Shown here piece by piece: positions 2,439 to 44,338 of a stretch of DNA of 64,000 nt. Position 1 is the first letter of the stretch. Every line of letters starts with the position of its first letter. The notes under the pieces are model-generated. The model had not been told where the DNA came from and ran no database searches. It was given only the letters and a program-made list of their open reading frames with translations. The position numbers were made by a program, and so were the translations under genes. This DNA comes from Gemmataceae bacterium (GTDB taxonomy: Bacteria > Planctomycetota > Planctomycetia > Gemmatales > Gemmataceae): positions 1 to 64,000 of the forward strand of contig LR594586.1 in NCBI GenBank assembly GCA_901538445.1. Reading direction: 5' to 3'.

Positions 2439-3455
2439 TCAGGCCCGGGTCGCGACGTACCCGCGGAGCAACCCGCCGAGTTCCTTGACCCACCCGCGGA
2501 GGCTCAGGAACTCCGGCCGCTCGATGTCGCCGTCGCGGGTCACGAGGTACACCGCGTCGGCGGCCGGGCACGCCGCGTCCCGCTCGGCCATCGCCCCCCA
2601 CACCCCGCTGTCAACCAGCACCCAGTCGTACCACTGGCGAAGCTGCGCCAGGAGCTTCGGTAGGTCGTCGCCGATCGCCCGAGCGGTCGCGTCGGTCGCG
2701 TCGCCGGCCGCCAGGATCTGCATCGTGGGCACGGGCGACTGCTGGACCGCCCACGCCAGAGGGACGCGGTGCGAGAGCACCTCGCACAGTCCCGGGGCCG
2801 ACCGCAGGGCCAGCTTCCCGGCCACTCCGGGCCGGTTCACGTTCGCGTCCACCACCAGGACCCGGGCCTTCGGCTCCTGCGCCAGCGTCACCGCGAGGTT
2901 GAGCAGAACGGTCGTTGTGCCGGCCTCGGGGCTCGCGGCCGAGAACATCAGCACGCGGGAGGTCGCCTCGGGCAACTGCCGGCGGACGTCGTCGCGGAGG
3001 ACGCGGTACTCGCCGCTGATGGCGTGGTCCGGGTAGTGCAGAGCGACCAGGGACGGGTCCGGCCCTTCCGAGCCGACCCGCGGCTGCCGCAGGCTCACGT
3101 CGTGGAACTTCACCGACAGATAGGCGGTCGCCGGCGGTGCCGCGGGAGCGGCCGGGGCCGCGGGTGCCGACGGAACTAGCCGCGGGAACGCGCGCGCCGG
3201 CTCCGGCTTGGGTTCGGGCTTCGGCTCGGTGACGGGCTTCGACGCCCCCGCGGCCGCTTTCGGAGCCGCGGGGGCACGCGGCGCGATCAGCACGGCCGGT
3301 GCCGCCCCCATTCCCGAGAACACGGGACCGGACGGCCCGCCGATCTCAATGAACGGGGCGTCGCCCGGACCCTCCCAGCCCGACTCGTCGGCACTGTCGT
3401 TGTTCGTTCCAGCGGTGCGTGCGACCCCGGTCAGCGCGTTGTATACCCGGCTCAT
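2439..3455 (-). CDS. BY-kinase-like (Wzc/CpsD-type) P-loop ATPase, Walker A lysine absent
   Basis: The N-terminus MSRVYNAL resembles bacterial tyrosine kinases of exopolysaccharide loci (MSRIYEAL type). A Pro/Ala-rich linker (residues 50-110) leads to a MinD/Wzc-like ATPase core with a P-loop region SPEAGTTT (about 175-182) and Walker A' VLVVDAN (199-205). The Walker A lysine expected before TT is threonine, and no C-terminal tyrosine cluster is visible, so it may be a catalytically altered pseudokinase. It lies 21 bases downstream of the ExeA-like ATPase gene and is probably cotranscribed. Such pairs accompany exosortase/EPS systems; no polymerase or exosortase is present here. Confidence 0.75.
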   Translation of the reverse strand: MSRVYNALTGVARTAGTNNDSADESGWEGPGDAPFIEIGGPSGPVFSGMGAAPAVLIAPRAPAAPKAAAGASKPVTEPKPEPKPEPARAFPRLVPSAPAAPAAPAAPPATAYLSVKFHDVSLRQPRVGSEGPDPSLVALHYPDHAISGEYRVLRDDVRRQLPEATSRVLMFSAASPEAGTTTVLLNLAVTLAQEPKARVLVVDANVNRPGVAGKLALRSAPGLCEVLSHRVPLAWAVQQSPVPTMQILAAGDATDATARAIGDDLPKLLAQLRQWYDWVLVDSGVWGAMAERDAACPAADAVYLVTRDGDIERPEFLSLRGWVKELGGLLRGYVATRA

Positions 3456-3476
3456 TCCATGCCTCGTGTGAGTCGG

Positions 3477-4427
3477 TCAGGCGATCCGCGTGTGTGTTGC
3501 ACGATTCATCGGCCCGGGGCCGCCGCCCGCTTCAACTTGCTTGGTCTCGGCGACCCTGCCGGGGTGCAGAAGCAGTACCGGTTCCGCGGCGTCGGCCGGT
3601 TCGTCCGAATCGACGGGCTCCAGGTCGAGCCGGTCGAGCGACTCCAGGGCGGCCTCGACGTCCACGACCCCCGCCTCGTTACCGTCCGCGAGCTCCAGGG
3701 CGAGTGCGGCCGCCCGGTTCAGGATCCGCGGCACGCCGTGGCACGCGCCGGCGATCAGCGTGAGGGCGTCGGACTCGAACACCGCATCCGGCTCCCCGCC
3801 CGCGGCCCGGAGCTGGTGGTTCAGGTACGCGACCGACTCTGCGGCAGTCAACAGTTCGATCGCGGCGCGCGCCCCGATCCGCTGCGCGACCGCCTCGGAG
3901 CCGTGGTCGCGCAGCCGTTCGCGGAGCGAGGGGTGGCCGACGAGCACGGTGAACAGCGCCCCGCCGCGGCGCGTCTCCAGGTTCGCAAGGAGCCGCAGCT
4001 CCTCCAGCGCCACCGGCGCGAGGTGCTGGGCCTCGTCCAGAACCAGCACGGTCGGGTAGCCGGAATCCGTCGCGGCGGTCAGCAGGCACTCGGTGACCGC
4101 GAGTCGCAGTTCCTGCTCCGCGAGACCCTGGTACGGCTTGCCCAGATCGAACAGCACTGCCTGGAGCAGCTCCGAAGGAGACGCCGCCCGTGCCGACGGG
4201 ACGACCACCCGCGGCACATCGGGCAACAAGTGCTCGAGCCACTTGCGGCTCACGAGCGACTTGCCGCAGCCGGTGGGGCCGACGAGCAGGACGGCCGCGT
4301 CGCGGCGGGCGAACGCGCCGGCCACGGCCGCAAGGGCGGCCTCGTGTGACGGCGACGGGAAGTACGAGTCGGGATCAACCGCGGGTCGAAAGGGTTGTCG
4401 GTCCAGCCCAAAGCGCGACCAATCCAT
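3477..4427 (-). CDS. ExeA/TniB-like AAA ATPase (secretion or EPS locus type)
   Basis: The 316-residue product starts MDWSRFGLDRQPF, close to the FGL..PF opening of ExeA-type ATPases, with Walker A GPTGCGKS at 50-57 and Walker B VLVLDEAQHL near 127-136. An AAA lid follows, then a Pro/Gly-rich tail. The ATG at 4427 has a GGAGG site upstream; the longer ORF extends into the intergenic region without support. The family includes GspA/ExeA secretion ATPases and the ATPase paired with exosortase-linked tyrosine kinases. The BY-kinase-like gene directly downstream favours the latter context. Confidence 0.82.
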   Translation of the reverse strand: MDWSRFGLDRQPFRPAVDPDSYFPSPSHEAALAAVAGAFARRDAAVLLVGPTGCGKSLVSRKWLEHLLPDVPRVVVPSARAASPSELLQAVLFDLGKPYQGLAEQELRLAVTECLLTAATDSGYPTVLVLDEAQHLAPVALEELRLLANLETRRGGALFTVLVGHPSLRERLRDHGSEAVAQRIGARAAIELLTAAESVAYLNHQLRAAGGEPDAVFESDALTLIAGACHGVPRILNRAAALALELADGNEAGVVDVEAALESLDRLDLEPVDSDEPADAAEPVLLLHPGRVAETKQVEAGGGPGPMNRATHTRIA

Positions 4428-11728: not shown

Positions 11729-12029
11729 CCCGGTCGCACCCGGCCGCCCGTGCCGCCTTCAGCGTCTCGGCCTCGACGTGCGACCCGTAGGCGACCACCC
11801 GCGGCGCTGTCGGGCATGCCGCCTTGAGTTGCGCCAGAAAGTCAGTCAGGTCGAGGCCAGGTGCCTGCAAATCGACGATGACGCACGTTGGCGGCGACTC
11901 GGTCACGAGCGCGAGCGCGCCGGCCGGCGACTTGGCTTGCCGCACCGCGAACCCGGCGGCGCGTGCCGAACCCGAAATGCGGCTGAAGAAGATCAGGTCG
12001 TCGCCGAGCGCAATTCCGTACGGAGTCAC
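11646..12029 (-). CDS. Receiver-like (response-regulator-type) single-domain protein
   Basis: The 127-residue product resembles a CheY-like receiver: hydrophobic strand and DD pair near the N-terminus (ALGDDLIFF), VIVDLQAPG with the candidate phospho-Asp near residue 53, VVAYGS in place of the usual hTs strand, and a C-terminal helix. The conserved lysine near position 104 may be replaced, as the region reads CDRVMPRSKF. It starts with GTG in a GTGA overlap with the protease gene stop, indicating translational coupling, and overlaps the SWIM gene tail to tail. Confidence 0.7.
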   Translation of the reverse strand: MTPYGIALGDDLIFFSRISGSARAAGFAVRQAKSPAGALALVTESPPTCVIVDLQAPGLDLTDFLAQLKAACPTAPRVVAYGSHVEAETLKAARAAGCDRVMPRSKFAAELEGAIARWLAPVTAPAE

Positions 12030-13336
12030 TTCTTGTCCTCTTTCTTCTCGTCCTTCTTCTCGCCGAGCCCCTGCGAATCGAGCAGGATCTTGAGCGCGTC
12101 GGCGAGGCCCGCGTCGAACTTCTTCTCGCCGAAGTTCTTCAGCAGCGTCTGCTTCACCTTGGTCGCGACCTCGTCCGAAAGCTTCTTGCTCGCGGCCTCG
12201 GCCAGCACCACGTACAGCGACCCCGGGTTCTTGTTGACGACAACGTAGAGCCCGACCATCTTCTCGCCCTTCAGCCGGCCCTCGGCGAACTCCTTCAAAA
12301 CCTTCGTGCGGTCGGCCGCGCTCATCGCCTTGAGTTTGGCCGCGTCCTGATTCGGGAGCGTGTCGAACGTCTCGATGAGCAGGTCGAGCCCCTTCTCCTT
12401 CAGGAGCTTGTCCGCGGCCGGTTGCACCTTGGCGAATGCTTCATCGGAGAAGAACTTCGCCTCGTCCTTGCTCTTGAGCGCCGCGTCGCGGTGCGGCTTC
12501 GCGGGCTCCTTGTCCTTGGCCTTATCCTTGACCTGCGAGTTCGCGGCGACCGCCTCGGTCGAGCGGAGCGTCTGCACCGACCGCCGGTTCAGGAGCCGCT
12601 TCACCTCCGAGAGGTCCACGAACGTGCTCAGGAGCTGCGCGTCGATCGCGCCGCCCTGCGTGACGCCGACGAGTTGCCCCTTGTCATTGACGAGGGGGCC
12701 GCCGCTGTCGCCGGGGTTCGTCGGCGAGTCGGTCTCGATCACCTTCGCCTCGAACGTCAGCACCGTCCGCTCGTCGAGTTTGGCCCGCCACTTCTTGCCG
12801 TACACCTGCCGCACCTTCCCCGGCGTGTAGACCCACAGCGCCCCGCTCTTCCCGGGGTTGCCGACGGAGTGGACCGTCTGACCGGGGTCGGGGCTCTCGG
12901 CCGCGAGGGCCAGTGCCGGCACGCCGTCGGGCACCTTGTCGATGCGGACGAGTGCGAGGTCGCCCTCCTTGTCGATCTCGACGACGTCCCCCGGGATGCC
13001 GAGCCGGTTGGCGTTGTCGAGGTAGTGCTTGCGGTCGGAGATCGCCCGCTGGTCCCGGCCGTAGTCGGGGAAGAACACGGTCGCTCGCTTCACGTCGCCG
13101 ACGACGTGGTAGTTGGTCAGCACGAGCCGGCGGCCGCGGTCCACGAGCGTGCCGGTGCCGGTCGCGAGCCGGCCGCTCCCGCGGTCCGAGTGGACCCACA
13201 CCGTCGAGCGCAGCACGTCGCGGTACACCCCGGCCCCAACGTCGGCGGGTGCGGGGGCGGTCGGCGGGTCGGCCGGCTGTGCGAGCGCGCCCGGGGTGAA
13301 GGGGACGAGAAGGGCGAGTGCGAGGAGCCTGGACAT
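12026..13336 (-). CDS. Secreted trypsin-like (S1) serine protease with C-terminal TPM-like domain
   Basis: The 436-residue precursor has a signal peptide ending near GALAQ (residue 20). The S1 catalytic triad is visible: H77 in LTNYHVVGD, D126 in EGDLALVRI and S211 in NPGDSGGPLV. A Lys-rich linker (about 270-300) leads to a C-terminal alpha/beta domain whose VGLYVVVNKNPGSLYVVL region and KKFDAGLADAL end recall TPM/periplasmic phosphatase-like domains. The function is probably degradation or sensing of envelope proteins. The ATG at 13336 was chosen for the signal peptide; the frame continues far upstream only as a shadow of the SWIM genes. It is coupled to the receiver-like gene downstream. 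Confidence 0.82.
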   Translation of the reverse strand: MSRLLALALLVPFTPGALAQPADPPTAPAPADVGAGVYRDVLRSTVWVHSDRGSGRLATGTGTLVDRGRRLVLTNYHVVGDVKRATVFFPDYGRDQRAISDRKHYLDNANRLGIPGDVVEIDKEGDLALVRIDKVPDGVPALALAAESPDPGQTVHSVGNPGKSGALWVYTPGKVRQVYGKKWRAKLDERTVLTFEAKVIETDSPTNPGDSGGPLVNDKGQLVGVTQGGAIDAQLLSTFVDLSEVKRLLNRRSVQTLRSTEAVAANSQVKDKAKDKEPAKPHRDAALKSKDEAKFFSDEAFAKVQPAADKLLKEKGLDLLIETFDTLPNQDAAKLKAMSAADRTKVLKEFAEGRLKGEKMVGLYVVVNKNPGSLYVVLAEAASKKLSDEVATKVKQTLLKNFGEKKFDAGLADALKILLDSQGLGEKKDEKKEDKK

Positions 13337-13489: not shown

Positions 13490-14074
13490 ATGGCCAAGCA
13501 AACCGCGAAGGCTCCCACGAAGAAGGCGACCCCGAAGGCACCGGCCGCGACCGCCCCTGCTCCTGCCGCGGCCACGCCCGCCCCGGCACCAGCACCGAGA
13601 CCAAAGCCCGCGAACATCGGCGAGTTCCTGACGAAACTCGCCCGCGCCACCGACCCGGCGAAGCTCGACAAGGCGACCGCAATGCTCCGGGCCGAGCGGT
13701 TCAAGCTGTTCGCGAAGGTCGCGGACGACCACCTCGTCGGCATCGTGAAGAGCCAGTCGAGCCCCGACCTCGTGTACTCGTGCCGGCTCGCCAGCGACGG
13801 GAGCTACGCCTGCTGCACGCAGAACCTCAACATCTGCGGCGGGCTCCGCGGGTCGCCGTGCAAGCACCTGCTGGTGCTCGTCGTCGGGCTGGCGAAGGCC
13901 GGCGAACTCGACCCCGCCACGGCCCACGACTGGACGCAGGCGTCGCGCAAGAAGAAGGCCGAACTCGACAAGGACGCGATGGCCGCCACGTTCCTTCAGT
14001 ACAAAGGTGCCGAGGCCGGCGAGGTGGACTGGCGGCCCACCGAGACCATTCCCGAAGACTTCTACGCGATGTGA
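13490..14074 (+). CDS. SWIM-like zinc-finger protein A of the MoxR/DUF5682/VWA cassette
   Basis: The 194-residue protein has an Ala/Pro/Lys-rich disordered N-terminus (1-42), a helical segment (DPAKLDKATAMLRAERFKLF) and a divergent SWIM zinc finger (CC..N..IC....SPCKHLLVL), ending in DWRPTETIPEDFYAM. The next two genes encode proteins with the same core and tail, so these are tandem paralogs. SWIM fingers bind zinc and mediate DNA or protein contact. It opens an eight-gene rightward run ending with the VWA gene. The helix FKLFAKVADDHLVGIVKSQ is nearly shared by all three copies. Its role is inferred from context only. Confidence 0.75.
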   Translation: MAKQTAKAPTKKATPKAPAATAPAPAAATPAPAPAPRPKPANIGEFLTKLARATDPAKLDKATAMLRAERFKLFAKVADDHLVGIVKSQSSPDLVYSCRLASDGSYACCTQNLNICGGLRGSPCKHLLVLVVGLAKAGELDPATAHDWTQASRKKKAELDKDAMAATFLQYKGAEAGEVDWRPTETIPEDFYAM

Positions 14075-14083
14075 GGCGCACCC

Positions 14084-15211
14084 GTGGCGAAGAAGAAACC
14101 CGCGGCCCCGGGCACGAAGCCGGCCGCCATTAAGCCCGCGGCGAAGACGCCCGTTGCGAAGAAGCCCGCGAAACCCAAAGTGGACTGGGTCGCGCTCCTG
14201 CGGTCCGGCCCGGACGGCGTCAAGAAGTGGAACAAGCTGACGGTCGCCGAGCGGAAGGCGGTGCGGTTGGGCGCGTGCGACCTTGCCGAGGCCGACCTGA
14301 GCGGCATCAACCTGCGCGGGCTCCGGCTGAACAAGCTCCACGCCCCGGGGGCGAAGTTCGTCGGCGCGAACCTCGGCGACACCTGGATCGAGGGCGGGAA
14401 CCTCCGCGGGGCCGACTTCTCCGGGGCGGCGCTGCGGTCGTTCGGCGGGCACGGGTCCGACTTCGCCGGGGCCAGACTCGCCGGCCTCGATGCCCGCCAG
14501 AGCGGGTTCCCGAAGGCCAATCTCACCGGGGCCGACCTGACCGGCACGAACCTCACGGACTGCGACCTGCTGGGCACGGACCTCACCGACGCCGTCCTGA
14601 CCGGCGCGGACCTCGCCGGGTCCGTGTTCGACCAGCACACCAGGTGGCCCGCGGGGTTCGCGGTCCCCGGCGAGGCGCTGTGGGCCGGCAAGGGGACCGA
14701 CCCGCGGCTGAGCGGCAAGGGGAAGAAGGCCGTCGCCGCCGACATCAACGGGCTGCTGGCCCGCCTCCACGCGAACATCGACGAGCGGCGAATGAAGCGC
14801 GTCCTGGACATGCTCAAGAAGGAGCGCAACCAGATCTTCAGTGAAGTGGAACCGGCGCTCGTTCGGGGGATCGTGAAGAGCCAGCGCGACGTCGATACCG
14901 TGTACTCCTGCGTGCTCACCGACGACGGCACCTACTCGTGCTGTACGCCGGACATGTCGCAGTGCATGGGCCTGGCCGGCGAACCGTGCAAGCACCTGCT
15001 CGTCCTCGTCATCGGTCTCGCGCGGGCCGGCCAGTTCGAGCCGGCGACCGCCGACAAGTGGCTCGTCGCGGCGAACAAGAAGGGGCCGCGGTGGAACAAA
15101 ACCGTCCAGAGCCACATGGCCGACTCGCTCCTGAAGTACAAGGGCGTGCAGGCCGGCGAGGTGGACTGGCGGCCGACCGAGACCATTCCCGAAGACTTCT
15201 ACGCGATGTGA
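14084..15211 (+). CDS. Pentapeptide-repeat plus SWIM-like zinc-finger protein B
   Basis: The 375-residue product starts with GTG nine bases after the previous stop. After a Lys/Ala/Pro-rich N-terminus it has roughly 25 pentapeptide repeats of A(D/N)LxG form (about residues 60-185), a right-handed beta-helix fold. It then has the same helix (RVLDMLKKERNQIF), SWIM-like finger (SCC....QC....EPCKH) and DWRPTETIPEDFYAM tail as protein A. The fusion probably adds a binding surface to the shared finger module. It is followed by a large inverted repeat before paralog C. Confidence 0.8.
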   Translation: MAKKKPAAPGTKPAAIKPAAKTPVAKKPAKPKVDWVALLRSGPDGVKKWNKLTVAERKAVRLGACDLAEADLSGINLRGLRLNKLHAPGAKFVGANLGDTWIEGGNLRGADFSGAALRSFGGHGSDFAGARLAGLDARQSGFPKANLTGADLTGTNLTDCDLLGTDLTDAVLTGADLAGSVFDQHTRWPAGFAVPGEALWAGKGTDPRLSGKGKKAVAADINGLLARLHANIDERRMKRVLDMLKKERNQIFSEVEPALVRGIVKSQRDVDTVYSCVLTDDGTYSCCTPDMSQCMGLAGEPCKHLLVLVIGLARAGQFEPATADKWLVAANKKGPRWNKTVQSHMADSLLKYKGVQAGEVDWRPTETIPEDFYAM

Positions 15212-15239
15212 TACCGGATCGCATGGATTCGTTTCGAAC

Positions 15240-15307
15240 TGGTGGGGCAGGCATTCGTGCCTGCCTCCCGACGCGGTTGGAGGCAGGCACGAATGCCTGC
15301 CCCACCA
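15240..15307. repeat. Perfect inverted repeat, 29-base arms
   Basis: Arms 15240-15268 and 15279-15307 are exact reverse complements separated by ten bases. The element is inserted between SWIM genes B and C and interrupts an otherwise tight operon. It would form a very stable hairpin in the transcript. Its sequence differs from the repeats at 100, 30058 and 32977. Confidence 0.85.
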
Positions 15308-15346
15308 AAAGCAACTGATCCACGCGATTCGATGTGAGGCGCAACC

Positions 15347-16012
15347 GTGGCAAAGGCGAAACCACCCGCGAACGCAAAAGCGCCTGCCAAGGCCAAGCCG
15401 ACTGCGGCGGCGAAATCACCAACGATGGCGAAGTCCGTCGCGAAAGTGAAGCCGGCTACGGCACCCGCGGCACCGGTCGCCGCACCTGAACCCGCGCCGG
15501 CACCAACCCCCGCTCCCACTGCGACGGAGGTGATGCCGTGGTCCGAGTTCGTGCGGCGCGTTCAGAGCGTCAGCGACTGGGGCGGCCTCCGAAAAGCGAC
15601 CACGATGCTCAAGAAGGAGAAGTTCCGCCTCTACGCCGAAGTAGAGCCCGACGTGGTGAACGGGATCGTGCGGAGCCAGTCGTCAGCCAGCCGGGTATAC
15701 GCGTGCCGGCTGGCGAAGGACGGTCGCTACTCCTGCTGCACGCAGAACCTCATCCAGTGCGTCGTTTCCAAGGGCTCGCCGTGCAAGCACCTGCTCGTGC
15801 TCGTCATGGGTCTGGTGAAGGCCGGTGAGTTCGACGGCACCCCCGCGGTTGAGTGGCTCCGCCTCGCCCGGAAGATGGGGAAGACCGCCGACGGCCACAA
15901 GCCCGACAAGGAAGTGGTCGCCGCGACGTTCATCAAGTACAAGGGCGTCGAGGCCGGCGAGATCGACTGGCGGCCCACGGACACCATCCCCGAAGACTTC
16001 TACTCCGCGTGA
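15347..16012 (+). CDS. SWIM-like zinc-finger protein C of the cassette
   Basis: The 221-residue protein (GTG start) has a Lys/Ala/Pro-rich N-terminus of about 60 residues, then the shared module: GLRKATTMLKKEKFRLY, GIVRSQSSASRVYACRL, a finger SCC....QC....SPCKHLLVLV, and the tail DWRPTDTIPEDFYSA. It is closest in layout to protein A (about the same core length) and lacks pentapeptide repeats. The GAGGCGCAACC upstream resembles the spacer ahead of protein B, consistent with duplication of a whole unit. The stop is four bases before the next start. Confidence 0.75.
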   Translation: MAKAKPPANAKAPAKAKPTAAAKSPTMAKSVAKVKPATAPAAPVAAPEPAPAPTPAPTATEVMPWSEFVRRVQSVSDWGGLRKATTMLKKEKFRLYAEVEPDVVNGIVRSQSSASRVYACRLAKDGRYSCCTQNLIQCVVSKGSPCKHLLVLVMGLVKAGEFDGTPAVEWLRLARKMGKTADGHKPDKEVVAATFIKYKGVEAGEIDWRPTDTIPEDFYSA

Positions 16013-16015
16013 CCC

Positions 16016-16339
16016 GTGGACGAGATCGCCGAACTCCGCGACGCGCTCGACCGGCTCCACGCCGCGATGGACGACCTCGTCGTCCGCGGGGTGCGGTCCG
16101 CCGGCGCGACCGAGGTCGCCAAACTCGTGGCGCTGCGCGACGAGTTCCGCACCGCCGGGGCCGAGCACCTTGCGGAGAAGCTCGGCACCCTGCTCGACGC
16201 GGTGAACGACGGCGACCGCTCCGCCGCCCCCGCCCTCATGCGGGCGGTCACCACGTTCCGCCTGTTCGACCGGGTGCTGACGCTTGAAGTCGCGAAGACG
16301 CACCTGACCCCGCCCGAAGACCCCGTCGCGGAGGAGTAG
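16016..16339 (+). CDS. Small helical protein of the cassette, unknown function
   Basis: The 107-residue protein starts with GTG three bases after the SWIM C stop, implying coupled translation. It is entirely helical and acidic, with the stretch RLHAAMDDLVVRGVRSA. The next protein's N-terminus has a similar LSAAIEDLLLGGLTTA, so the two seem to share a domain. I do not recognise a family. Its placement inside the run suggests that it is a structural or adaptor component. Confidence 0.65.
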   Translation: MDEIAELRDALDRLHAAMDDLVVRGVRSAGATEVAKLVALRDEFRTAGAEHLAEKLGTLLDAVNDGDRSAAPALMRAVTTFRLFDRVLTLEVAKTHLTPPEDPVAEE

Positions 16340-16341
16340 CC

Positions 16342-17460
16342 GTGCTGCCGCCCGCCGCCGACCGCCCGAAACTCCAAGCGACGTTCGCCCAGCTCAGCGC
16401 CGCGATCGAGGACTTGCTCCTGGGCGGCCTCACCACGGCGACGGACGCGACGAAGCAGACGATCCACAACGCGCTCCAGGAGGCGGCGCGGTTCCGGCTG
16501 CTCCGGTTCGGCGGCACCATGCGGACCGTCGTGGACGACCTCGCCCGCTTCGCGAAGCACGACCCCACCCTCTCGCGCCGCCGACTCACGCTGTTCCTCA
16601 ACCGGGCGTGGCTCCAGTCGCGGGGGCTGGCCCACGCGCTCCGGGTCGGCGACGAGGCGCTGTTCGACCGCCTGAACTGGACCCCGCCGGCCCGCCCGCT
16701 CCCCGCGGTCGAGGTCGTCTGTCTCGGGGTCGCCAAGAAGGTCACGGCGTCGGTGGTGATCTTCGACTTCCGCCTCCGGGCGCTCGCGGCCGCGGGGCCG
16801 GTGGCGGCCGGTCAGCGGCTCAGTTGGTCCGCGGTGTTCCCCGTGAAACCGGGCCAGGACATTCCGCCCGAGGGGTTCTTGCACCTGCCTCAGAAGCAGA
16901 AGTTCGCGATGACCGCACTCCTCGAACGCAAGGCGATCGCGGTCACGAGCGCGACCGTGTCCGGTGAAGACGCGGAGTTTGCGAGGCTGTCGCTGACCGA
17001 GGCGAGCACCGTGACGCTGGGCAAGCCGTTCGCCGAGTGGGGCCGCTACCTCGCGTGGTCGCCCGACCGCGCTCTCGCGCGTCTCGAGACGCACGCCGCC
17101 GGCCCGCTCGACCTCGAAACCGAACTCCAGGAAGAAGTGGTGCTCCGCGACTACGAGATCGGCGCACCCGTCGCGGGCGAGGAGCCCGGCCAGACCGCGT
17201 ACCCGATCACCGCCGGGCACCTGTCTCTCCAAGCGGTCGTCGGCGCGGGCATCGAGGGCAAGGCGCTCAAGAAGGGTCTCGACGATCTGCGGAAGGCGAA
17301 GAAGGGCCGGCCGCCGCTGTTCGGGCTGATGCACTATGAGCGGTGCCGCCTCGTATTCCAGCCGCTCGCGACGTTCCCCGCGAGCGGGCCCGACTACCTC
17401 ACGATCTCCAAGGAGAGCGTGAACAAGGCCACGCTCCTCAAGGCGCTGAACTTCAACTAA
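16342..17460 (+). CDS. Cassette protein of unknown function, 372 aa
   Basis: The GTG start is two bases after the previous stop. The N-terminal 100 residues are helical (FAQLSAAIEDLLLGG, FRLLRFGGTMRTVVDDLARF) and resemble the small protein upstream. The remainder is a mixed alpha/beta region (VEVVCLGVAKKVTASVVIFDF, LSWSAVFPVKPGQDIP, then RCRLVFQPL near the end) with no signal peptide or membrane helix. I cannot assign a family. In related actinobacterial SWIM-MoxR-DUF5682-VWA clusters an uncharacterised protein often occupies a comparable place; whether this is its counterpart needs a profile search. Confidence 0.65.
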   Translation: MLPPAADRPKLQATFAQLSAAIEDLLLGGLTTATDATKQTIHNALQEAARFRLLRFGGTMRTVVDDLARFAKHDPTLSRRRLTLFLNRAWLQSRGLAHALRVGDEALFDRLNWTPPARPLPAVEVVCLGVAKKVTASVVIFDFRLRALAAAGPVAAGQRLSWSAVFPVKPGQDIPPEGFLHLPQKQKFAMTALLERKAIAVTSATVSGEDAEFARLSLTEASTVTLGKPFAEWGRYLAWSPDRALARLETHAAGPLDLETELQEEVVLRDYEIGAPVAGEEPGQTAYPITAGHLSLQAVVGAGIEGKALKKGLDDLRKAKKGRPPLFGLMHYERCRLVFQPLATFPASGPDYLTISKESVNKATLLKALNFN

Positions 17461-17469
17461 CTTCCCGAC

Positions 17470-17493
17470 GCCCCCGCGTTGCGACGCGGGGGC
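17470..17493 (+). other. Intra-operon hairpin
   Basis: Nine-base arms (17470-17478 and 17485-17493) with a six-base loop sit in the only sizeable gap, 53 bases, between the 372-aa gene and the MoxR gene. No T-tract follows, so it is more likely a processing or stability element than a full terminator. Confidence 0.4.
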
Positions 17494-17513
17494 TCGCAAC
17501 TGACACACAACAC

Positions 17514-18668
17514 ATGGCCAAGAAACCCGCACCCGCTGCTCCCCAGCCCACCACAGCCGACGTCCTGCGCGAGCCGGCCGAGGTGCGGTACGCCGACCAA
17601 CTCGAAGCGCTGCGGCAGAACGACGCCGACGCGCCGCCGGCCAACTGGCGGCTGTCGCCGCGGTCGGTGCTGCTGTACGTCGTCGGCGGCAAGACGCTGA
17701 AGGCGACGATCGGCGGCAAGCCGACCGAGGTGCCGATCACGCGGAAGTTCTTCGGCGACGACGGCATCGTCGAGCGCGCGATCGTCACGCTCGCATCGGA
17801 GCGCGCGCTGCTGCTCGTCGGCGAACCGGGGTGCGGCAAGAGCTGGCTGTCCGAGCACCTCGCGGCCGCGGTGTGCGGAACGTCACTTCTCACAATTCAA
17901 GGCACGGCCGGCACCACCGAGGAGCACATCAAGTACTCGTGGAACATCGCCCGCGTCATCGCCGAGGGGCCGACGCCGCAGAACATGATCCCGTCGCCCA
18001 CGATGGTCGCGATGCGGGCCGGCGGCCTTCTCCGGTTCGAGGAACTCACCCGCTGCGTGCCCGACGTGCAGGACTCGCTCGTCTCGATACTGTCGGACAA
18101 GGCCGTCGCGGTGCCGGAGCTGCCGAACGACAACATGGTGTTCGCGAAGCCGGGGTTCAACGTCATCGCCACCGCGAACACCCGCGACCAGGGCGTGAAC
18201 GAGCTGTCGGCCGCACTCAAGCGCCGGTTCAACTACGTCTACATCCCGATCATCGGCGACCAGAAGACCGAGGTGAAGCTGGTGCAGCAGCGCTCGGCCG
18301 AGTTGCTAGAGCGGTACAACCTCCCGGCCAAGCTCAGTCCTTCGGTCATTGAACTGCTCGCCACGGTGTTCCGCGAGATCCGCAACGGAAAATCGACCGA
18401 CGGCGTGAGCCTCAAGAAGCCGAGTACGCCGATGTCCACCGCCGAGGCGATCGGCGTCGCGCTCGACGCGGCGCTGCACTCGCGGTTCTTCGGGGCCGGC
18501 GAGGTCGGCCCCGCGGACATTGCCCGCAACATGGTCGGGGCCGTCGTGAAGGAAGACCAGGAGGACAAGGTCGCGCTGAAGGAGTACGCGACGCTGGTCG
18601 CCAAGAAGCGCGCCGCGAAGGACAAGAGCTGGAAGGACTTCCACGAGGCGCTCGTCGAACAACTCTGA
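17514..18668 (+). CDS. MoxR-type AAA+ ATPase of the cassette
   Basis: The 384-residue protein has Walker A GEPGCGKS (103-110), Walker B GLLRFEEL (171-178), a sensor-1 type region FNVIATANTRDQG and an arginine-containing ALKRRFNYV box, the layout of MoxR/RavA-class AAA+ ATPases. These act as chaperone-like motors, usually with VWA partners, to insert cofactors or remodel complexes. The ATG at 17514 gives an AKKPAPAAPQ disordered N-terminus like the SWIM proteins; the longer frame is an extension over the gene upstream. The DUF5682 and VWA genes follow at 13- and 19-base spacing. Confidence 0.9.
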   Translation: MAKKPAPAAPQPTTADVLREPAEVRYADQLEALRQNDADAPPANWRLSPRSVLLYVVGGKTLKATIGGKPTEVPITRKFFGDDGIVERAIVTLASERALLLVGEPGCGKSWLSEHLAAAVCGTSLLTIQGTAGTTEEHIKYSWNIARVIAEGPTPQNMIPSPTMVAMRAGGLLRFEELTRCVPDVQDSLVSILSDKAVAVPELPNDNMVFAKPGFNVIATANTRDQGVNELSAALKRRFNYVYIPIIGDQKTEVKLVQQRSAELLERYNLPAKLSPSVIELLATVFREIRNGKSTDGVSLKKPSTPMSTAEAIGVALDAALHSRFFGAGEVGPADIARNMVGAVVKEDQEDKVALKEYATLVAKKRAAKDKSWKDFHEALVEQL

Positions 18669-18681
18669 GCCGGGGGTTCTC

Positions 18682-21090
18682 GTGGCGAAAGCCGCTGCCA
18701 TCGCCGATGCCGGGCTGGACGCCGCCGAGGTCGGGCGGCGCGTCGATGCCGTGCTGTCCGACGCGCTGTACTGGTTCCCGGTGCGGCACCACTCGCCGAA
18801 CACCGCCCGGCACGTCCGAGCCGCGATCGCGGCACGCAAGCCGCAGGTGATCTTCATCGAGGGGCCGTTCGAGGCGAACCACCTCGTGCCGCACATCACC
18901 GACGCCGCGACCGCGCCGCCGGTCGCCATCTACTCGTCGTACCGCGACGACGCCAACGTCCTCGGCCTCAACGGCGTCGCCAGCGCCGCGGCCGACATCC
19001 CCGCCCGATTCGCGGTGTGGTACCCGCTCGTGCCGTACTCGCCCGAGTACGTCGCGATGAAGGCCGCGGCCGAGACCGGCGCGGAGGTCGTGTTCATCGA
19101 CCTGCCGCACCACGCGCTCATCAAGCCGCCCGGCGCGGGGGAGACGCAACCACCGCCCGAGCCGAGCGACGACCGGCTCATCACCACGTCGGGCTTCTAC
19201 CGGCACCTCGCCGAGGCCGCGGGGTACAAGTCGTGGGACGAGGCGTGGGACTCGCTGTTCGAGAACCCGCACGACGCCGACCACGAAGCGTTCCGCCGCG
19301 AACTCGCGACGTTCTGCTGCGCCGCCCGCATGACCTCGGACCACGCCGCGGAGCAACTCGAAGGCACCGTCGAGCGCGAGCGGCACTTCCTGAAGGTGAT
19401 CCGCGAGACGCTCGCCGCGAAGAAGCTGAAGCCCGATCAGGCGATGGTCGTGTGCGGGGGCTTCCACTTGTTCCTCGACCGCGGCGACCGCGCCGCGCCC
19501 CCGCCATGCCCCGACGGCATCGTGTACACCACGGTCGTGCCGTACTCGTACTTCCGCATCTCGGAGATGTCCGGCTATGGGGCCGGGAACCGCGCCCCGC
19601 AGTTCTACCAGGCGTGCTACGACCTCGCGATGACCGGGCGTGCCGGCGACATCGCGATGGACCACGCCATCACCGTGCTTCGGCAGGTGCGGAGGGCCGG
19701 TGACCCGCTCTCGACGGCCGACGCCATCGCGATCACGCACCACGCCGGCATGCTCGCCCGGCTCCGCGGCCGCACGCACCCGACGCTCGACGACATCCAC
19801 GACGCGCTCGTCACCTGCTGTTGCAAGGGGAACCCGGCCGAGGAGGGCACGAAGTTGCTCGCGGCGATGGACGTGGCCGGCGTCGGCACCCGGATCGGCA
19901 AGGTCACCGCGAAGCTCGGCCGGCTGCCGATCGTCAACGACTTCCACACGCAACTGTCCGACCTCGAACTCGGGGAGGTGTTCGGCAAGGAGAAGAAGCT
20001 CGCGCTCAAGCTCGACAAGCGCGAGCCGCTCGCGGCGCGGAGATCGGCGTTCCTGCACCGGGTCGCGTACGTCAAGGTGCCGTTCGCCGCGATGACCAGC
20101 GGTGGCGGCGACTTCTCGGGCACCTTGTTCCGCGAGGACTGGCAGCTCAAGTGGGACCCCAGGACCGAGCCGCACCTGATCGAACAGAACCTGTACGGCG
20201 ACACCATCGAGGCGGCCGCACTCGGGCGGCTGCGGGAGGCGATGGCGAAGGTCGGCACGCACGCGGGCAAGACGTGCGAGCAGTTGGTCGAGGCGGTCAA
20301 CATGGACATGCCGGACCTCGTGCAGTCGGCGGCTGACGCGTGCGGGTCCGCGATCGACGCCGACCCGTCCTTCGTGTCGCAGGCCGCCGCCCTCCAGCAC
20401 CTCGGCCACCTCGACCAGTTCGCCGCGTTCCGCGGGCTGCGCCGCGACACGCTGGACGACCTCCTCACCCGCTGCTACGACCGGGCGTGCTTCGCGCTCC
20501 CCGACGCCGCGAGCGCACCGGAACAGGAGCAGCCGCACGTCGTCGATTCGCTGATCGCGGTCGCCGAAGTGGTTCAGAGGGGCGAGAAGGCGCGGTTCGA
20601 CCGCTCGCTGTTCGCGGAAGCGGCACGGACCGCGGCGGGCGTGTCCACCGTGCCGTTCCTTCGCGGCGCGTTCTTCGGCTTGCTGTGCGAAATACGCGAG
20701 TTGCCAGCCGAGGCGCTCGCCGCGGAGGTTTCGGGGTTGGCTCGCGCCGCGCCCGCGGTGATGGTGACCGCCGGCGACCTCCTCGACGGCATGCTCGCGG
20801 TGTCGCGAACGTCGGTGATGCTCGGGGCCGAGGCGCTCGTCGGAGCGGTGGATGAGTTGTTAAAGGCCGCCGACTGGGAGTCGTTCCTCGTCATGCTCCC
20901 GCGGCTGCGCGCCGCCATCGAGCGGCTCGGCCGCTCCCAAAAGGAGTCGCTCGCCGGCACCGTCGCCAGGCGCTACGGCCTCGGCGGCCACGAAGACGTC
21001 ACCGCGATGCCCGGCGGCCTGAGCGCCACGGCGCTCGTCGCACGGCTTGACGCGGCCGTTGCCGCCACCCTGAAGGACTGGCCGCTGTAA
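18682..21090 (+). CDS. DUF5682-type protein of the MoxR/VWA cassette
   Basis: The 802-residue protein (GTG start, GGGGG upstream) begins with FPVRHHSP at 32-39 and IEGP at 59-62, then repeated short strand/loop motifs (VFIDLPHHA, MVVCGGFHLF, TVVPYSYFRIS). This is the pattern I associate with DUF5682 proteins, which lie between MoxR and VWA genes in many bacteria. The HHSP/IEGP opening resembles the GxxH and E-rich motifs of TraB/ChaN-like folds, suggesting a metal-dependent or hydrolytic activity, but this is inference. The C-terminal 400 residues are helical. No membrane segments are seen, so a cytoplasmic location is likely. Confidence 0.82.
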   Translation: MAKAAAIADAGLDAAEVGRRVDAVLSDALYWFPVRHHSPNTARHVRAAIAARKPQVIFIEGPFEANHLVPHITDAATAPPVAIYSSYRDDANVLGLNGVASAAADIPARFAVWYPLVPYSPEYVAMKAAAETGAEVVFIDLPHHALIKPPGAGETQPPPEPSDDRLITTSGFYRHLAEAAGYKSWDEAWDSLFENPHDADHEAFRRELATFCCAARMTSDHAAEQLEGTVERERHFLKVIRETLAAKKLKPDQAMVVCGGFHLFLDRGDRAAPPPCPDGIVYTTVVPYSYFRISEMSGYGAGNRAPQFYQACYDLAMTGRAGDIAMDHAITVLRQVRRAGDPLSTADAIAITHHAGMLARLRGRTHPTLDDIHDALVTCCCKGNPAEEGTKLLAAMDVAGVGTRIGKVTAKLGRLPIVNDFHTQLSDLELGEVFGKEKKLALKLDKREPLAARRSAFLHRVAYVKVPFAAMTSGGGDFSGTLFREDWQLKWDPRTEPHLIEQNLYGDTIEAAALGRLREAMAKVGTHAGKTCEQLVEAVNMDMPDLVQSAADACGSAIDADPSFVSQAAALQHLGHLDQFAAFRGLRRDTLDDLLTRCYDRACFALPDAASAPEQEQPHVVDSLIAVAEVVQRGEKARFDRSLFAEAARTAAGVSTVPFLRGAFFGLLCEIRELPAEALAAEVSGLARAAPAVMVTAGDLLDGMLAVSRTSVMLGAEALVGAVDELLKAADWESFLVMLPRLRAAIERLGRSQKESLAGTVARRYGLGGHEDVTAMPGGLSATALVARLDAAVAATLKDWPL

Positions 21091-21109
21091 CACTCGACCC
21101 GAGGGCACC

Positions 21110-22252
21110 ATGACCGCTGACCCGCACACGCTCGCCCGGTGGCGACTCGTCCTCGGCAAGGTCGCCGAGCAGCAGGGCATCTCCTGCGAGGGCGACGGCG
21201 ACGCCGAGCGCGTCGAGCAACTCGTCGGGTTCCTGTTCGACGAGGGCGGCAAGGGGAAGCCCAGTCGCCGGCGGCACGGCGACCGCGGGGCCGGCGGCGA
21301 GTCGGAGGGGATCACCGTTCCCGAGTGGGTGGAGGGGGTGAACGAACTGTTCCCGAACCAGTCCAAGGAGGTCATGCAGAAGGAGTTGGTGCGCCGCCGC
21401 GGCATCGCCGAGTTGCTGGAGAAGCCCGAACTGCTCGAAAAGATCGAGCCGAGCCTCGAACTCGCCAAGACCCTGATGACGCACCGCGACCTGATGAACC
21501 CGAAGACCCGCGTGCTGGCCCGCAAGATCATCGATCAGGTCGTCGAGGAGTTGAAGCGGAAGATGCAGGTGCAGGTCGAGCAGACGATCATCGGCGCGAT
21601 CCGCAAGGACCGGCACTCGCCGCGGAAGGTGTTCCGCAACCTCGACGTGAAGACCACCCTCCGCCGCAACCTCAAGAACTTCGACCCCGACTCCGGCAAG
21701 CTCCTGGTGGACCGCGTGTTCTTCTACGCCGCCGAGCGGAAGAAGAAGCCCTGGCACATCGTGGTCGTCGTCGATCAGTCGGGTTCGATGCTGGAGAGCA
21801 CGGTGTTCTCGGCGATCATGGCGTCGATCTTCGCGGAACTCCCGGCGATGAAGACGTCGCTCGTCCTGTACGACACCCGCGTCGTGGACCTGTCCGACAA
21901 GCTCGGCCAGCCGGTGGACGTGCTGATGAAGGTGCAACTCGGCGGCGGCAACGACACCGCCCTGGCGCTGAGGTACGCGACGAACCTGATCCGCCAGCCG
22001 GCCCGCACCATTCTGGTTCTCATCAGCGACTTCTACGAGGGCGACGGCCCCGCGGAGAAGGCGATGGTCGACCAGGTCAAGTACCTCGGCGACTGCGGGG
22101 TGCGGCTGATCGGCCTCGCGGCGCTTGGGTACGACGCGCGGCCGTTCTACAACAAGCCGACCGCGACGAAACTCAAGAAGGTCGGCATGGACGTGCTCGT
22201 CTGCACGCCCGAGAAGCTCGCCGTGTGCATGGCCGAGATCATCCGCGGGTGA
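21110..22252 (+). CDS. VWA domain protein, partner of the MoxR ATPase
   Basis: The 380-residue protein has a helical N-terminal half with basic stretches and a C-terminal von Willebrand A domain. The metal ion-dependent adhesion site is intact: DQSGS at 222-226, T283 in the GGGNDTALAL loop, and D307 in LVLISDFYEGDG. VWA proteins of this class receive or target the MoxR motor's action. It closes the eight-gene run; the following metallophosphoesterase begins 35 bases later on the same strand but has no obvious functional link. Confidence 0.9.
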   Translation: MTADPHTLARWRLVLGKVAEQQGISCEGDGDAERVEQLVGFLFDEGGKGKPSRRRHGDRGAGGESEGITVPEWVEGVNELFPNQSKEVMQKELVRRRGIAELLEKPELLEKIEPSLELAKTLMTHRDLMNPKTRVLARKIIDQVVEELKRKMQVQVEQTIIGAIRKDRHSPRKVFRNLDVKTTLRRNLKNFDPDSGKLLVDRVFFYAAERKKKPWHIVVVVDQSGSMLESTVFSAIMASIFAELPAMKTSLVLYDTRVVDLSDKLGQPVDVLMKVQLGGGNDTALALRYATNLIRQPARTILVLISDFYEGDGPAEKAMVDQVKYLGDCGVRLIGLAALGYDARPFYNKPTATKLKKVGMDVLVCTPEKLAVCMAEIIRG

Positions 22253-42287: not shown

Positions 42288-43982
42288 ATGATCCAAGCGT
42301 TCTCGTTCATTCGCTGGTCGCGTCCCGAACAGGGTAAGGGCGATACGCTGCGGCGTCAGAAGAAGGCTTCCGCGAACCTCTGCGAACGCCACGGATGGAA
42401 CCTGACGGAACTTCCCCCGCTTCAAGGACGTTCGGCCTTCCGTGGCAAGCAACGGGCTGTTGGGCCACTGGCTGAGTTCCTCAAGCTCGCGGAAGACGGG
42501 CGGGTTCCAAAGGGTTCGGTGTTGATTGTCGAGAGCTTGGACAGGTTAACACGCGAAGCCGTCCGCACCGCAGTAAAGTTCTTCCTGTCGATCCTAGACG
42601 CGGGAATCGACATCGCAACGACGAACCCGGAACACATCTTCAAGCACGACGCGGAAAACGACATCCAAGACATCATGATTGCGGTTGTCGTCCTCTCGCG
42701 GGGTCACGAAGAAAGCGCGGTGAAGTCGGAACGGGTCGGAGAGGCATGGGCCAAAAAACGAGAACGCGCGAAAACGGAAAAACTCACTGCCACTTGCCCC
42801 GCATGGCTTCGGCTGCGTGAAGATCGAAGCGGGTTCGAGGTGATCGACAAGAACGCCGATACCGTGCGGTTGATCTTCCGGCTTGCGGCAGACGGCTACG
42901 GGGTGTTTCGCATCACGCGGAAGCTCAACGCGGACAAGGTGCCGACACTGGGCAGCAAGAAGAAGAAAGCTCGCCAGTGGTACGAGTCTTACGTCATCCG
43001 CATTTTGAACAACCGGGCGGTTCTGGGTGAGTATCAGCCTTGCACGCGGAACGGAAACAAGAGCGTGCCGCAAGGCGAACCCATCAAGGACTATTACCCG
43101 CCGATCCTGAAGGAAGCCGACTTCGTAGCGGCCCGTCGCGCCATCGATTCGCGGGCGTTGGGCTTCAAACGAACCGGGAAGGACATTCCGAACGTGTTCG
43201 GGAAGCTCATTCGGAATGCCCGCGATGGTTCGGGTTGGCTGTACGTTCCCGCGAAGAAGAAAAGCCCTATCGCACGCCTCGAACCTGTCGGCGGGCGTAA
43301 CGGCACTTCTGCCCCTCTGTCGATGCGGTATCAGGTTCTCGAAGACGCCTTCCTTGTGTTCCTCTCGGAAGTCAGCGTTCAGGATTTGACGGGAACGCCG
43401 AAGGTGAGCAAGGCTGCCGAAATCGAGTGGAAGATTAAAGACCTAACCAAGCGTATCGGTGTCCTCGAAGCCCGGTTGGACACGGACGACGATTTGTCTT
43501 CGCTGCTGGACAAGTTGAAGGGGTGGAAGCTCGAAAAGGCAGAGCTTGAAAGGAAGCTCGAAGCGGAGAACAACCCGACCGATGAAGGGGCGATTCTGCA
43601 CGACGCGAAAGCGGTAATCGCGAAGCTGAAAGAGAACCCCGAACACTACCGCACGAAACTGAAGCAACTTCTTCATCTGCTGATCGAAGAAGCGTGGTTG
43701 CTGGTCTACGAAGCTCGCGCCATCGGGTCACGCCAACGGGAAATGACGGTGCGGTATGCGAAGCTGCAAGTTCACTTCAAAACGGGTGTCGTGCGGTCGA
43801 TCCAGATTTACCCCGAAGCGGTCGTTGGGGCTGATGCCGAAGGGGAACCCGCAACCTTCTTCGACTTGCGGACGTTGCGAGAAGACAAGGACATGATGAA
43901 GACGTTCTCGAAGCCGATCCCGTTGCCGTCTGCCGCTGACGCGATTCCGGCCCCGCCGCAGTACCGGCCGAAAAAGCGGTAG
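42288..43982 (+). CDS. Large serine recombinase (phage integrase)
   Basis: The 564-residue protein starts MIQAFSFIRWSRPEQ, with the likely catalytic serine at residue 11, and has VESLDRLTRE and IATTNPEHIF in the resolvase domain (1-150). A recombinase domain (TCPAWLRLREDRSGFEVI, ITRKLNADKVPTLGSKKK) precedes a beta region without zinc cysteines and a coiled coil (about 370-450). Such enzymes integrate phage DNA unidirectionally at attB. It lies directly inside the comM junction, as expected for an integrase next to attL. An in-frame TTG at 42255 has an AGGGGAGG stretch but poor spacing. Confidence 0.93.
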   Translation: MIQAFSFIRWSRPEQGKGDTLRRQKKASANLCERHGWNLTELPPLQGRSAFRGKQRAVGPLAEFLKLAEDGRVPKGSVLIVESLDRLTREAVRTAVKFFLSILDAGIDIATTNPEHIFKHDAENDIQDIMIAVVVLSRGHEESAVKSERVGEAWAKKRERAKTEKLTATCPAWLRLREDRSGFEVIDKNADTVRLIFRLAADGYGVFRITRKLNADKVPTLGSKKKKARQWYESYVIRILNNRAVLGEYQPCTRNGNKSVPQGEPIKDYYPPILKEADFVAARRAIDSRALGFKRTGKDIPNVFGKLIRNARDGSGWLYVPAKKKSPIARLEPVGGRNGTSAPLSMRYQVLEDAFLVFLSEVSVQDLTGTPKVSKAAEIEWKIKDLTKRIGVLEARLDTDDDLSSLLDKLKGWKLEKAELERKLEAENNPTDEGAILHDAKAVIAKLKENPEHYRTKLKQLLHLLIEEAWLLVYEARAIGSRQREMTVRYAKLQVHFKTGVVRSIQIYPEAVVGADAEGEPATFFDLRTLREDKDMMKTFSKPIPLPSAADAIPAPPQYRPKKR

Positions 43983-44107
43983 GCAGTTCGGGGCTGTAGC
44001 CGACTTCGGGAGAAATCCTTCGGGCAGTTCGAGAGAGTTCCCGGTGCGGTGCTTGTTAGTGGTGCCGTGGGGCATTCTCGCGGCGAACACCAACAAGGGA
44101 TGATGCC

Positions 44108-44338
44108 ATGAAACGCTTTGAAATGTCGATGAGTCTCATGCAGGGCAAGAAGAAGATCGTACTCACGGCTACGCGGATCGGTGACGATAAGTACCGGCTG
44201 TCACTGGATGGCGGGATGGTGCATTACTTCACGCGGGTGGATGCGGGTATCTTCATCTGTGATTTGCTGCCGAGCTTTCTCGAAGGTATCGGCATCCATG
44301 TGGCATGTGAGCATTTTTCCGAGGTTGAAGAGAGTTGA
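44108..44338 (+). CDS. Small prophage protein, unknown
   Basis: The 76-residue protein has a GGGATGATG stretch before its ATG and a beta-rich sequence (KKKIVLTATRIGDDKYRLSLDGGMVHYFTRVD, then CDLLPSFLEGIGIHVACEHF). No signal peptide or known motif is seen. It lies 125 bases after the integrase on the same strand, in DNA of lower GC than the host. Possible control or accessory role only. Confidence 0.6.
   Translation: MKRFEMSMSLMQGKKKIVLTATRIGDDKYRLSLDGGMVHYFTRVDAGIFICDLLPSFLEGIGIHVACEHFSEVEES

Follow-up and report, generated by a model that had tools for sequence, protein, structure and literature searches.

An eight-gene MoxR-DUF5682-VWA cassette from a Gemmataceae bacterium with a constant C-terminal tag on differing N-termini: a possible DNA-linked remodelling machine

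What might be done by eight adjacent genes that join a MoxR-type ATPase, a VWA protein and a DUF5682 protein to three SWIM-like proteins and two proteins that had seemed to be orphans? The question is raised by positions 13490-22252 of a 64,000-nucleotide stretch (the window; contig LR594586.1, positions 1 to 64,000) from a Gemmataceae bacterium, GenBank assembly GCA_901538445.1. MoxR-VWA machines are widespread, and few have known targets. An earlier note on this DNA had left stress response, conflict and metal-cofactor insertion all possible; the evidence described here leans towards a DNA-linked hydrolase or remodelling machine among the possible roles. The eight genes, A to H, are one conserved system. 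Its order and domain make-up are conserved, its motor and site residues are intact, and a constant tag is carried on differing N-termini; this architecture is well supported. The core of the system was already known, and what is new is the reading of three subunits and the tagged-partner design.

All eight open reading frames lie on the + strand and were also kept by a simple codon-model gene caller. The gaps between them are 9 (A-B), 135 (B-C), 3 (C-D), 2 (D-E), 53 (E-F), 13 (F-G) and 19 (G-H) base pairs (bp), which bears out the closely spaced, same-strand genes of the earlier note. The start of F was set at ATG 17514 because the start of its reading frame at 17343 runs into E; C begins at GTG 15347 or 15533. 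Pfam matched pentapeptide repeats in B (2.9e-20), AAA_5 in F (4.8e-34), DUF5682 in G (1.3e-109) and VWA_CoxE in H (6.2e-42), in agreement with the MoxR, DUF5682 and VWA proteins that the note had named. A, C, D and E are without any Pfam match, and in NCBIfam nothing among the eight proteins rose above any family's cut-off.

F (17514..18668, 384 amino acids, aa) is a MoxR-type AAA+ ATPase of the AAA_5 kind, with Walker A (GEPGCGKS) and Walker B-like (LLRFEEL) motifs. The linked H (21110..22252, 380 aa) is a CoxE-type VWA protein with residues like those of a metal ion-dependent adhesion site (DQSGS, GGGNDT and ISDF). Among homologues of the window type, Walker A is found in 19/19 F proteins and the Walker B-like motif in 18/19. 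DxSGS is present in 20 of 21 H proteins, the exception being a fragment cut by the end of its contig (locus L082). By analogy, F and H would together form a motor. The proposal that the system is built on a MoxR-VWA pair, kin to SWIM-MoxR-DUF5682-VWA neighbourhoods, is supported.

Is the cassette a system or a chance neighbourhood? A DUF5682 scan gave 151 relatives, and 80 loci were kept, the 22 closest (L079-L100) at 44-82% identity and 58 more distant. Four are contigs that bear two labels (L079=G005, L080=G003, L081=G010, L099=G044), and G010 is in the same genus as the window's genome. The order SWIM-like (one to five copies), D, E, MoxR, DUF5682, VWA is complete in 15 of the 22 close loci, from five or more bacterial phyla. 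Thirteen of these were recognised via gene calls and two (L094, L098) via six-frame search; in L079 E lies in two frames, and L082 and L092 reach a contig end inside the first or last gene. Five of the 22 are cut by contig ends (L080, L083, L086, L090, L100). D and E are in one frame at two loci, from Nannocystis and from a deltaproteobacterial metagenome-assembled genome (MAG) (L091, L098). In the 14 loci with all five genes (L082 was dropped, its VWA being cut), pairwise distances of D, E, MoxR, DUF5682 and VWA correlate at r 0.92-0.97, and 0 of 2000 permutations were as high; without the two Lokiarchaeota rows r is 0.76-0.89. The same order across phyla refutes the idea that these are unrelated genes that happen to be neighbours, and the D-E fusions and co-divergence also speak against it; we regard it as vanishingly improbable. 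Relatives thus do share the gene order on which the earlier note had staked the idea of one system. The note had also taken the SWIM set and the orphans for peculiarities of this lineage. Rare as they are within Planctomycetota, both occur again in Lokiarchaeota and in no fewer than five bacterial phyla, and these relatives rule out a lineage-special cassette.

Three kinds of partner occur around MoxR-DUF5682-VWA: a canonical SWIM protein with a HEAT protein; DUF4132 with a downstream protein of ~715 aa; and the window type. Canonical SWIM proteins are found in at least 36 of the 58 distant loci, and 33 of these also have HEAT; no DUF5682 was called in L134, L145, L154 and L156, so that the counts for these 58 are lower bounds. 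None of the 58 has a called SWIM-like gene, with a short six-frame match (2e-8) in L102 from Lokiarchaeota, and E occurs among them solely in L101 and L103, also from Lokiarchaeota. When 20 genomes drawn from the 25 loci L079-L103 were searched, unlinked cases included, 19 had a SWIM-like protein, one of them as a weak fragment. The exception is a Lokiarchaeota MAG; the other Lokiarchaeota have a strong, unlinked match (3.3e-34) and the weak fragment (6.9e-5). Among 59 related genomes (own included), DUF5682 is present in 27 and a SWIM-like protein in 9. Across Planctomycetota, an even draw of 392 genomes (own included) had the SWIM-like protein in four, one of these matches being weak. In a quick tree of 66 DUF5682 proteins (leaving aside proteins shorter than 690 aa and 16 rows that are mostly near-copies from Paenibacillus and Bacteroidota), 21 window-type rows lie on one side of a branch with a Shimodaira-Hasegawa-like approximate likelihood ratio of 100. 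Planctomycetes, cyanobacteria, proteobacteria, myxobacteria and acidobacteria are intermixed on that side, as expected of horizontal transfer.

Several variants were seen during the survey. A second kind of DUF5682 system occurs in the same genus (L051 4779-15958, L052 5508-16319), with DUF4132 upstream (by Pfam, in L051) and the ~715-aa, E-related protein downstream. Two genomes have a small protein of 129-150 aa between MoxR and DUF5682 (L048 1191-1643, L042 8765-9154), which we take to be of the GxxExxY kind. Tandem VWA paralogues end the cassette in two genomes (L043 16372-18716, L048 4181-6803). At L066 1260-8637 and L058 6436-12326 the core is divergent: VWA precedes MoxR, and the DUF5682-like protein is ~985 aa long; in L066 a short SWIM-like protein without the tail stands beside it.

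What, then, are the partners of this core? A (13490..14074, 194 aa) has a Lys/Ala/Pro-rich N-terminal tail, with an isoelectric point (pI) of 10.7 over the first 45 residues. B (14084..15211, 375 aa) has a basic tail followed by pentapeptide repeats, and C is at 15347..16012 (221 aa, or 159 aa if from 15533). All three end in a SWIM-like C-terminal module. The earlier description of three SWIM-like proteins, one with pentapeptide repeats, holds as far as likeness to SWIM and the repeats in B are concerned. Strict SWIM membership is ruled out, because PF04434 (SWIM zinc finger) is unmatched in A, B and C and their Cys/His spacing, C-x9-C-x7-C-x7-C-x-H, diverges from the CxCx(n)CxH of SWIM. Compared by hhalign with the N-terminal SWIM region of the canonical SWIM protein, the module gave 92.4% and a score of 53.3 against a shuffle maximum of 24.4; the canonical protein of L063 matches PF04434 above cut-off and has the motif CxCx6CxH. 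The module is presumed to bind zinc.

Collection of SWIM-like proteins gave 67, or 55 distinct ones after identical sequences were merged. The module extends to the C-terminal end of every one collected. In 52 of the 55 that end is a tail, [DE]WRPx[ED]xxPED[YF] plus one to four residues, and the three without it are a broken frame (L047 2536), the divergent protein of L066 and one at a contig end (L078). The N-terminal parts are of several kinds: none, Lys/Ala/Pro-rich, pentapeptide, BRCT-like, or mixtures. Pfam was run on 13 of the 55, relatives of A-C, and matched BRCT above its cut-off in three (L046 10200-12281 and both proteins of L084). A double BRCT suggested by eye in L097 6369-7406 and L217 8451-9521 was rejected, having no Pfam match; the N-terminus of L078 8136-9167 also looks by eye like a double BRCT. 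For proteins of G008 and G002, identity is 40 and 53% in the N-termini against 77 and 89% in the module, 89% in MoxR and 86% in DUF5682. Protein B of the window and of G008 shows 61% in the N-terminus and 87% in the module; for G008 and G013 the values are 73-92% and 85-99%. Repeats and disordered tails are generally quick to drift. The constant C-terminal tag on differing N-termini is a hub-and-tag design.

Tagged genes also occur alone. Copies unlinked to a cassette were present in 9 of 12 fetched stretches, and in the cyanobacterial genome G448 this holds for three of the four copies. Such solitary genes, like the position of the tail at the very C-terminal end, would suit a machine for protein quality or stress whose tagged proteins serve as substrates rather than adaptors and are processed at their conserved tail by MoxR-VWA-DUF5682. 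That explanation, which would leave the OB (oligonucleotide/oligosaccharide-binding) folds of E and the module of ~150 residues on the tag unexplained, is very unlikely.

Could the differing N-termini instead recognise invaders? In an anti-phage or conflict system the MoxR-VWA switch would restrain DUF5682 as effector, the variable N-termini would sense the invader, and the effector would cleave a host or phage protein. A constant module with differing N-termini fits the design of MoxR-vWA conflict systems, in which pentapeptide repeats occur too (PMC7159879). The patchy distribution (the 4/392 above) and the mixing of phyla in the tree are also consistent with conflict, as are the defence-named matches of F, to the MadB ATPase model (9.3e-10; 38 bits, where the cut-off is 475) and to mad8 (3.3e-5). 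In PADLOC, however, seven of the eight proteins were unmatched and F had weak ATPase matches only, mad8 being the best. With PADLOC at 1e-4, ten flanking proteins from six loci gave one match, a trypsin-like one, apparently via the protease domain. A pattern scan of viral contigs showed no SWIM-like module or DUF5682 relative, and plasmids had no relative of protein C. DUF5682 itself occurs in 40 plasmid records, all at <60% identity and some of them chromosome-sized, and a phage search with it returned one record (MT835988.1 10608-12758, 27% identity), labelled Bacteriophage sp. and without annotation. The genes dapF, pyrD and larC lie near the cassette, and SWIM, MolR, DUF4132 and YehL are absent from the main text of PMC7159879. 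Taken together, these results make a conflict role rather unlikely.

The former orphans prove to have relatives. D (16016..16339, 107 aa) is kin to the N-terminal helical domain of E (16342..17460, 372 aa), which is modelled as a four-helix bundle (residues 5-104) followed by tandem OB folds (113-349) like those of HIN, RPA and LEF-3. With deep alignments of 18 to 35 sequences, checked by 60 column shuffles and a reversed alignment, E aligned collinearly with the C-terminal two thirds of the canonical SWIM protein (69.9%, 303 columns) and with the ~715-aa protein of DUF4132-type loci (63.7%), and D aligned with the helical N-terminus of E (32.9%). No shuffle or reversed alignment came near the scores of these SWIM-like, E and D comparisons, although one value in the D-E shuffle null probably repeats the preceding one. 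Control comparisons to HEAT or TraB proteins were <1%, save for D with HEAT (9.6%); D with the canonical SWIM protein was weak at 7.4%, yet above its own shuffles. When few sequences were used, E and D gave 0.1% with the canonical SWIM protein, the signal appearing only with deeper alignments. Since the SWIM-like module and E are collinear with the canonical SWIM protein, the cassette is best read, on these alignments, as having that known subunit split and multiplied, with A-C and E as its parts.

The AlphaFold model of E (predicted local distance difference test, pLDDT, 86.5) shows the four-helix bundle and the tandem OB folds. Foldseek returned 30 chains at E<=1e-3 (2.3e-6 to 9e-4), all of them tandem-OB nucleic-acid binders by title (LEF-3, HIN-200, telomere-end-binding protein (TEBP), RPA), as loose matches with template modelling (TM) scores of 0.16-0.30 over the query. 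In the VIA comparison the OB part gave Z 7.0-8.2 over 162-187 residues for the best RPA, HIN and TEBP chains. The top value of 8.2 was for an RPA chain, within a range compatible with a mere common arrangement; for RPA70 (1jmc), the predicted model gave Z 7.7 over 187 residues. The helical part matches CheA-P1-like bundles at Z about 10, a common shape. The model thus predicts for E a tandem OB fold of the RPA/HIN kind. Where the earlier note had seen two orphan helical proteins, D does look helical, E is modelled as helices plus tandem OB folds, and the orphan label falls away for E, which matches both the C-terminal part of the canonical SWIM protein and the tandem-OB fold.

G (18682..21090, 802 aa) is the DUF5682 protein, with a TraB/Tiki-like N-terminal domain and a long helical C-terminus. 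Is it an enzyme? Its model (pLDDT 89.6) has as top structural match 7w5z_E, a chain named TraB family protein, at Z 9.1 over 197 residues (G residues 10-271), a value only modestly above the usual background; a later study of the ciliate supercomplex likewise includes a TraB-family protein among the subunits (PMC10060162). The DUF5682 N-terminus aligned with a TraB profile at 88.7% over 218 collinear columns, and its score of 53 compares with 21 at most among 60 column shuffles; the positive control, TraB with GumN, gave 93.7%. Pfam run on 46 DUF5682 proteins had TraB as its most frequent weak match (in 4 members, at best 0.039); ChaN was touched by one (0.0044), and none of the 46 matched PF01963 (TraB) above the curated cut-off. 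A TraB search of 59 planctomycete genomes gave a single sub-threshold match (G055:C313:48916-49035, 23 bits against 26.8), which falls within that genome's own DUF5682 gene. Sequence searches of the PDB returned nothing relevant with the DUF5682 profile, nothing useful with one TraB sequence, and 7w5z_E at 0.11 with seven.

The TraB/Tiki family is defined by two GxxH motifs plus an acidic residue. In DUF5682 the second GxxH is present in 46/46 proteins, and the Gly of the first is replaced by Pro in 23/46, the window's protein included. Residues E60, YSPE119-122, D140 and H262 of G are conserved in all 46, H36 in 41 of the 41 with letters there, and R232 and Y299 are also among the conserved positions. 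Judged by sequence, these positions are of the enzyme type, and over its first ~270 residues G resembles a divergent TraB/Tiki domain with a conserved site that probably binds metal. Tiki proteins are described as metalloproteases that act on Wnt, other members of the family being putative (PMC12329661). The word DUF5682 was absent from the literature searched.

Metal could enter in another way, if the cassette were a maturation chaperone. In NorQ-NorD, which drives metal insertion, a finger of the VWA protein enters the hexamer pore and a linker is twisted, allowing the metal to be inserted (PMC13036017). A MoxR-VWA pair like NorQD or CoxDE would likewise insert a metal or cofactor here, with the SWIM-like proteins and the weakly ChaN-like DUF5682 as carriers. 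The CoxE type of the VWA protein accords with this, as do the conserved Cys/His of the SWIM-like module and the touch of one DUF5682 member in 46 on ChaN, a haem-binding Tiki-superfamily model. Ten flanking proteins scanned contained no recurring metalloenzyme target, and maturation leaves the tandem OB folds, BRCT, pentapeptide repeats and basic tails unexplained; it is an unlikely role.

The components suggest instead a hub-and-tag machine, in which a MoxR-VWA motor, a TraB-like hydrolase and tagged recognition proteins would work together, probably on DNA; this is a real possibility that falls somewhat short of probable. The hub would consist of F, its CoxE-type partner H, and G, the last contributing a TraB/Tiki-type hydrolase or peptidase domain on a helical scaffold. 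D and E, with the HIN/RPA-like folds of E, would be the platform, and A, B and C, with their shared module, near-invariant tail and differing N-termini, the tagged partners. A partner might dock by its module and tail to D/E and the hub. Its N-terminus, whether a Lys-rich tail, pentapeptide repeats or, in some relatives, BRCT, would locate the target, probably a nucleoprotein or damaged DNA. The motor would then remodel the bound protein, in the fashion of NorQ acting through NorD, and DUF5682 would cleave or modify it. Delivery of targets to D/E and the hub by the tagged proteins is suggested by the shared tag, by its presence in 19 of 20 hub genomes even when unlinked, and by the D-E fusions. 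Zinc, docking, a DNA target, hydrolysis and the sequence of steps are what we infer.

The inference of a DNA target draws on the OB folds and BRCT, on the basic tails and the pentapeptide repeats, and, less directly, on DUF4132 and WGR. DUF4132 adjoins MoxR-DUF5682 in the sister branch that holds E. coli YehM, and yehF, beside the yeh DUF4132 gene, encodes a PF05406 protein, presumably of the WGR family. In Deinococcus radiodurans, a DUF4132 protein and a WGR protein are controlled by DdrO/IrrE and rise after mitomycin C (PMC8533742). A more specific version would be a new DNA-surveillance protease machine of bacteria and Asgard archaea, with interchangeable BRCT, pentapeptide or Lys-rich sensors whose common C-terminal zinc tag would hand trapped nucleoprotein targets over to the MoxR-VWA motor, the RPA-like platform and the peptidase of TraB/Tiki type. 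This version is distinctly unlikely. If it were true, DUF5682, E. coli YehM included, would be an intracellular Tiki-family peptidase powered by an AAA+ motor.

Besides the loose or modest structural matches given above, a number of results weigh against the hub-and-tag machine and its DNA target. The link to DNA damage is one of association only, in another branch than that of this cassette. In 12 of 14 members the OB region of E has a pI of 5.2-7.1, acidic to neutral, and it is basic solely in the window (8.8) and L103 (8.9). This speaks against general DNA binding, and OB folds serve protein contacts too. BRCT has no Pfam match in A, B or C; among the 13 relatives it is below cut-off in three (L088 1652-4186, L093, L219) and unmatched in seven. 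In the closest pair, G008 and G010, identity is 94-97% in the N-termini and 87-99% in the module, with no excess divergence. The SWIM-like gene alone is missing from the two loci of Schlesneria (L085, L087), and in both genomes it lies on another contig. All hhalign E-values hold for single comparisons. For G, Foldseek found nothing in the PDB at E<=1e-3. The TraB set was seven sequences selected by the motif GTAHVS; other alignments gave 73.5%, and an initial poor set that included two wrong short frames gave 24.8%. GumN-type proteins aligned at 64.9% over just 40 columns, those surrounding the second GxxH. Among the 46 DUF5682 proteins Pfam touched 43 families, mostly by chance (AAA_lid_2 in three members), and most TraB/Tiki proteins are putative metalloproteases (PMC12329661).

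The hub-and-tag reading turns a SWIM set and an orphan into tagged partners and a tandem-OB protein, and so into a machine that can be tested by way of the tail, the D-E fusion and the site residues. With DUF5682 placed near TraB/Tiki, an enzyme hypothesis that names its residues becomes available for the DUF5682 family, which extends from E. coli to Lokiarchaeota.

Other features of the window lie in and around the cassette. The B-C gap holds a piece of a dispersed palindromic element, an inserted repeat (15230..15330, no strand) recognised by search of the organism's own genome. It has 15 sites (own included) at >=92% identity over 99-101 bases, with further ones at lower identity. The element is REP/MITE-like (repetitive extragenic palindrome or miniature inverted-repeat transposable element), has many near-identical copies on contigs C1-C3 and could fold as a hairpin in the transcript. 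In the relatives L042 and L043 the same gap is 7 and 9 bp. The divergently oriented neighbour of the cassette (12026-13336) encodes a trypsin-like peptidase with a TPM domain. At 2439-4325 is a pair like the XrtA/PEP-CTERM-associated ATPase and tyrosine autokinase, below the families' cut-offs. A prophage-like region at 42519-62309 has an integrase, terminase large subunit, portal, major head protein and HNH endonuclease.

How does the cassette compare with known systems? With TraB/PrgY/GumN, Tiki and ChaN the likeness is in the DUF5682 N-terminal profile, the order of motifs and the top structural match; DUF5682 differs in being highly divergent, below Pfam cut-offs, and in having ~500 extra, mostly helical residues. 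The MoxR-vWA conflict systems (VMAP, iSTAND) share the MoxR-vWA pair with a third component, and constant plus variable modules including pentapeptide repeats (PMC7159879). They differ in that no VMAP or iSTAND family is among the Pfam matches of the eight proteins, though a divergent one could escape. RavA-ViaA, NorQ-NorD and CoxD-CoxE also pair a MoxR AAA+ protein with a VWA partner, the VWA here being of the CoxE type; to our knowledge none has DUF5682, OB or SWIM partners. Their known targets are respiratory or metalloenzymes (PMC7159879, PMC13036017).

Closer to the cassette is E. coli yehI-yehK-yehL-yehM-yehP-yehQ, which encodes in turn DUF4132, an unknown protein, MoxR, DUF5682, VWA and SWIM. 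The MoxR-DUF5682-VWA core is consecutive and in the same order, and models built from planctomycete proteins match yehL (MoxR, 2.2e-121), yehM (DUF5682, 1.2e-102) and yehP (VWA, 2.7e-125). From these matches, the core of the cassette is of the YehLMP type. The yeh cluster differs in that no D, E or SWIM-like tagged protein was detected; for YehQ, an insensitive, single-sequence comparison revealed no kinship with E, with the SWIM-like module or with the canonical SWIM protein. No functional study of the yeh genes turned up in the literature searched. The SWIM-HEAT-MoxR-DUF5682-VWA operon of Paenibacillus, Bacteroidota, Clostridia and many planctomycetes has the same core order, with one fused SWIM protein (~480 aa) and a HEAT protein. 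Compared with that operon, the cassette appears to have the SWIM subunit split and multiplied, and D occupies the place of HEAT.

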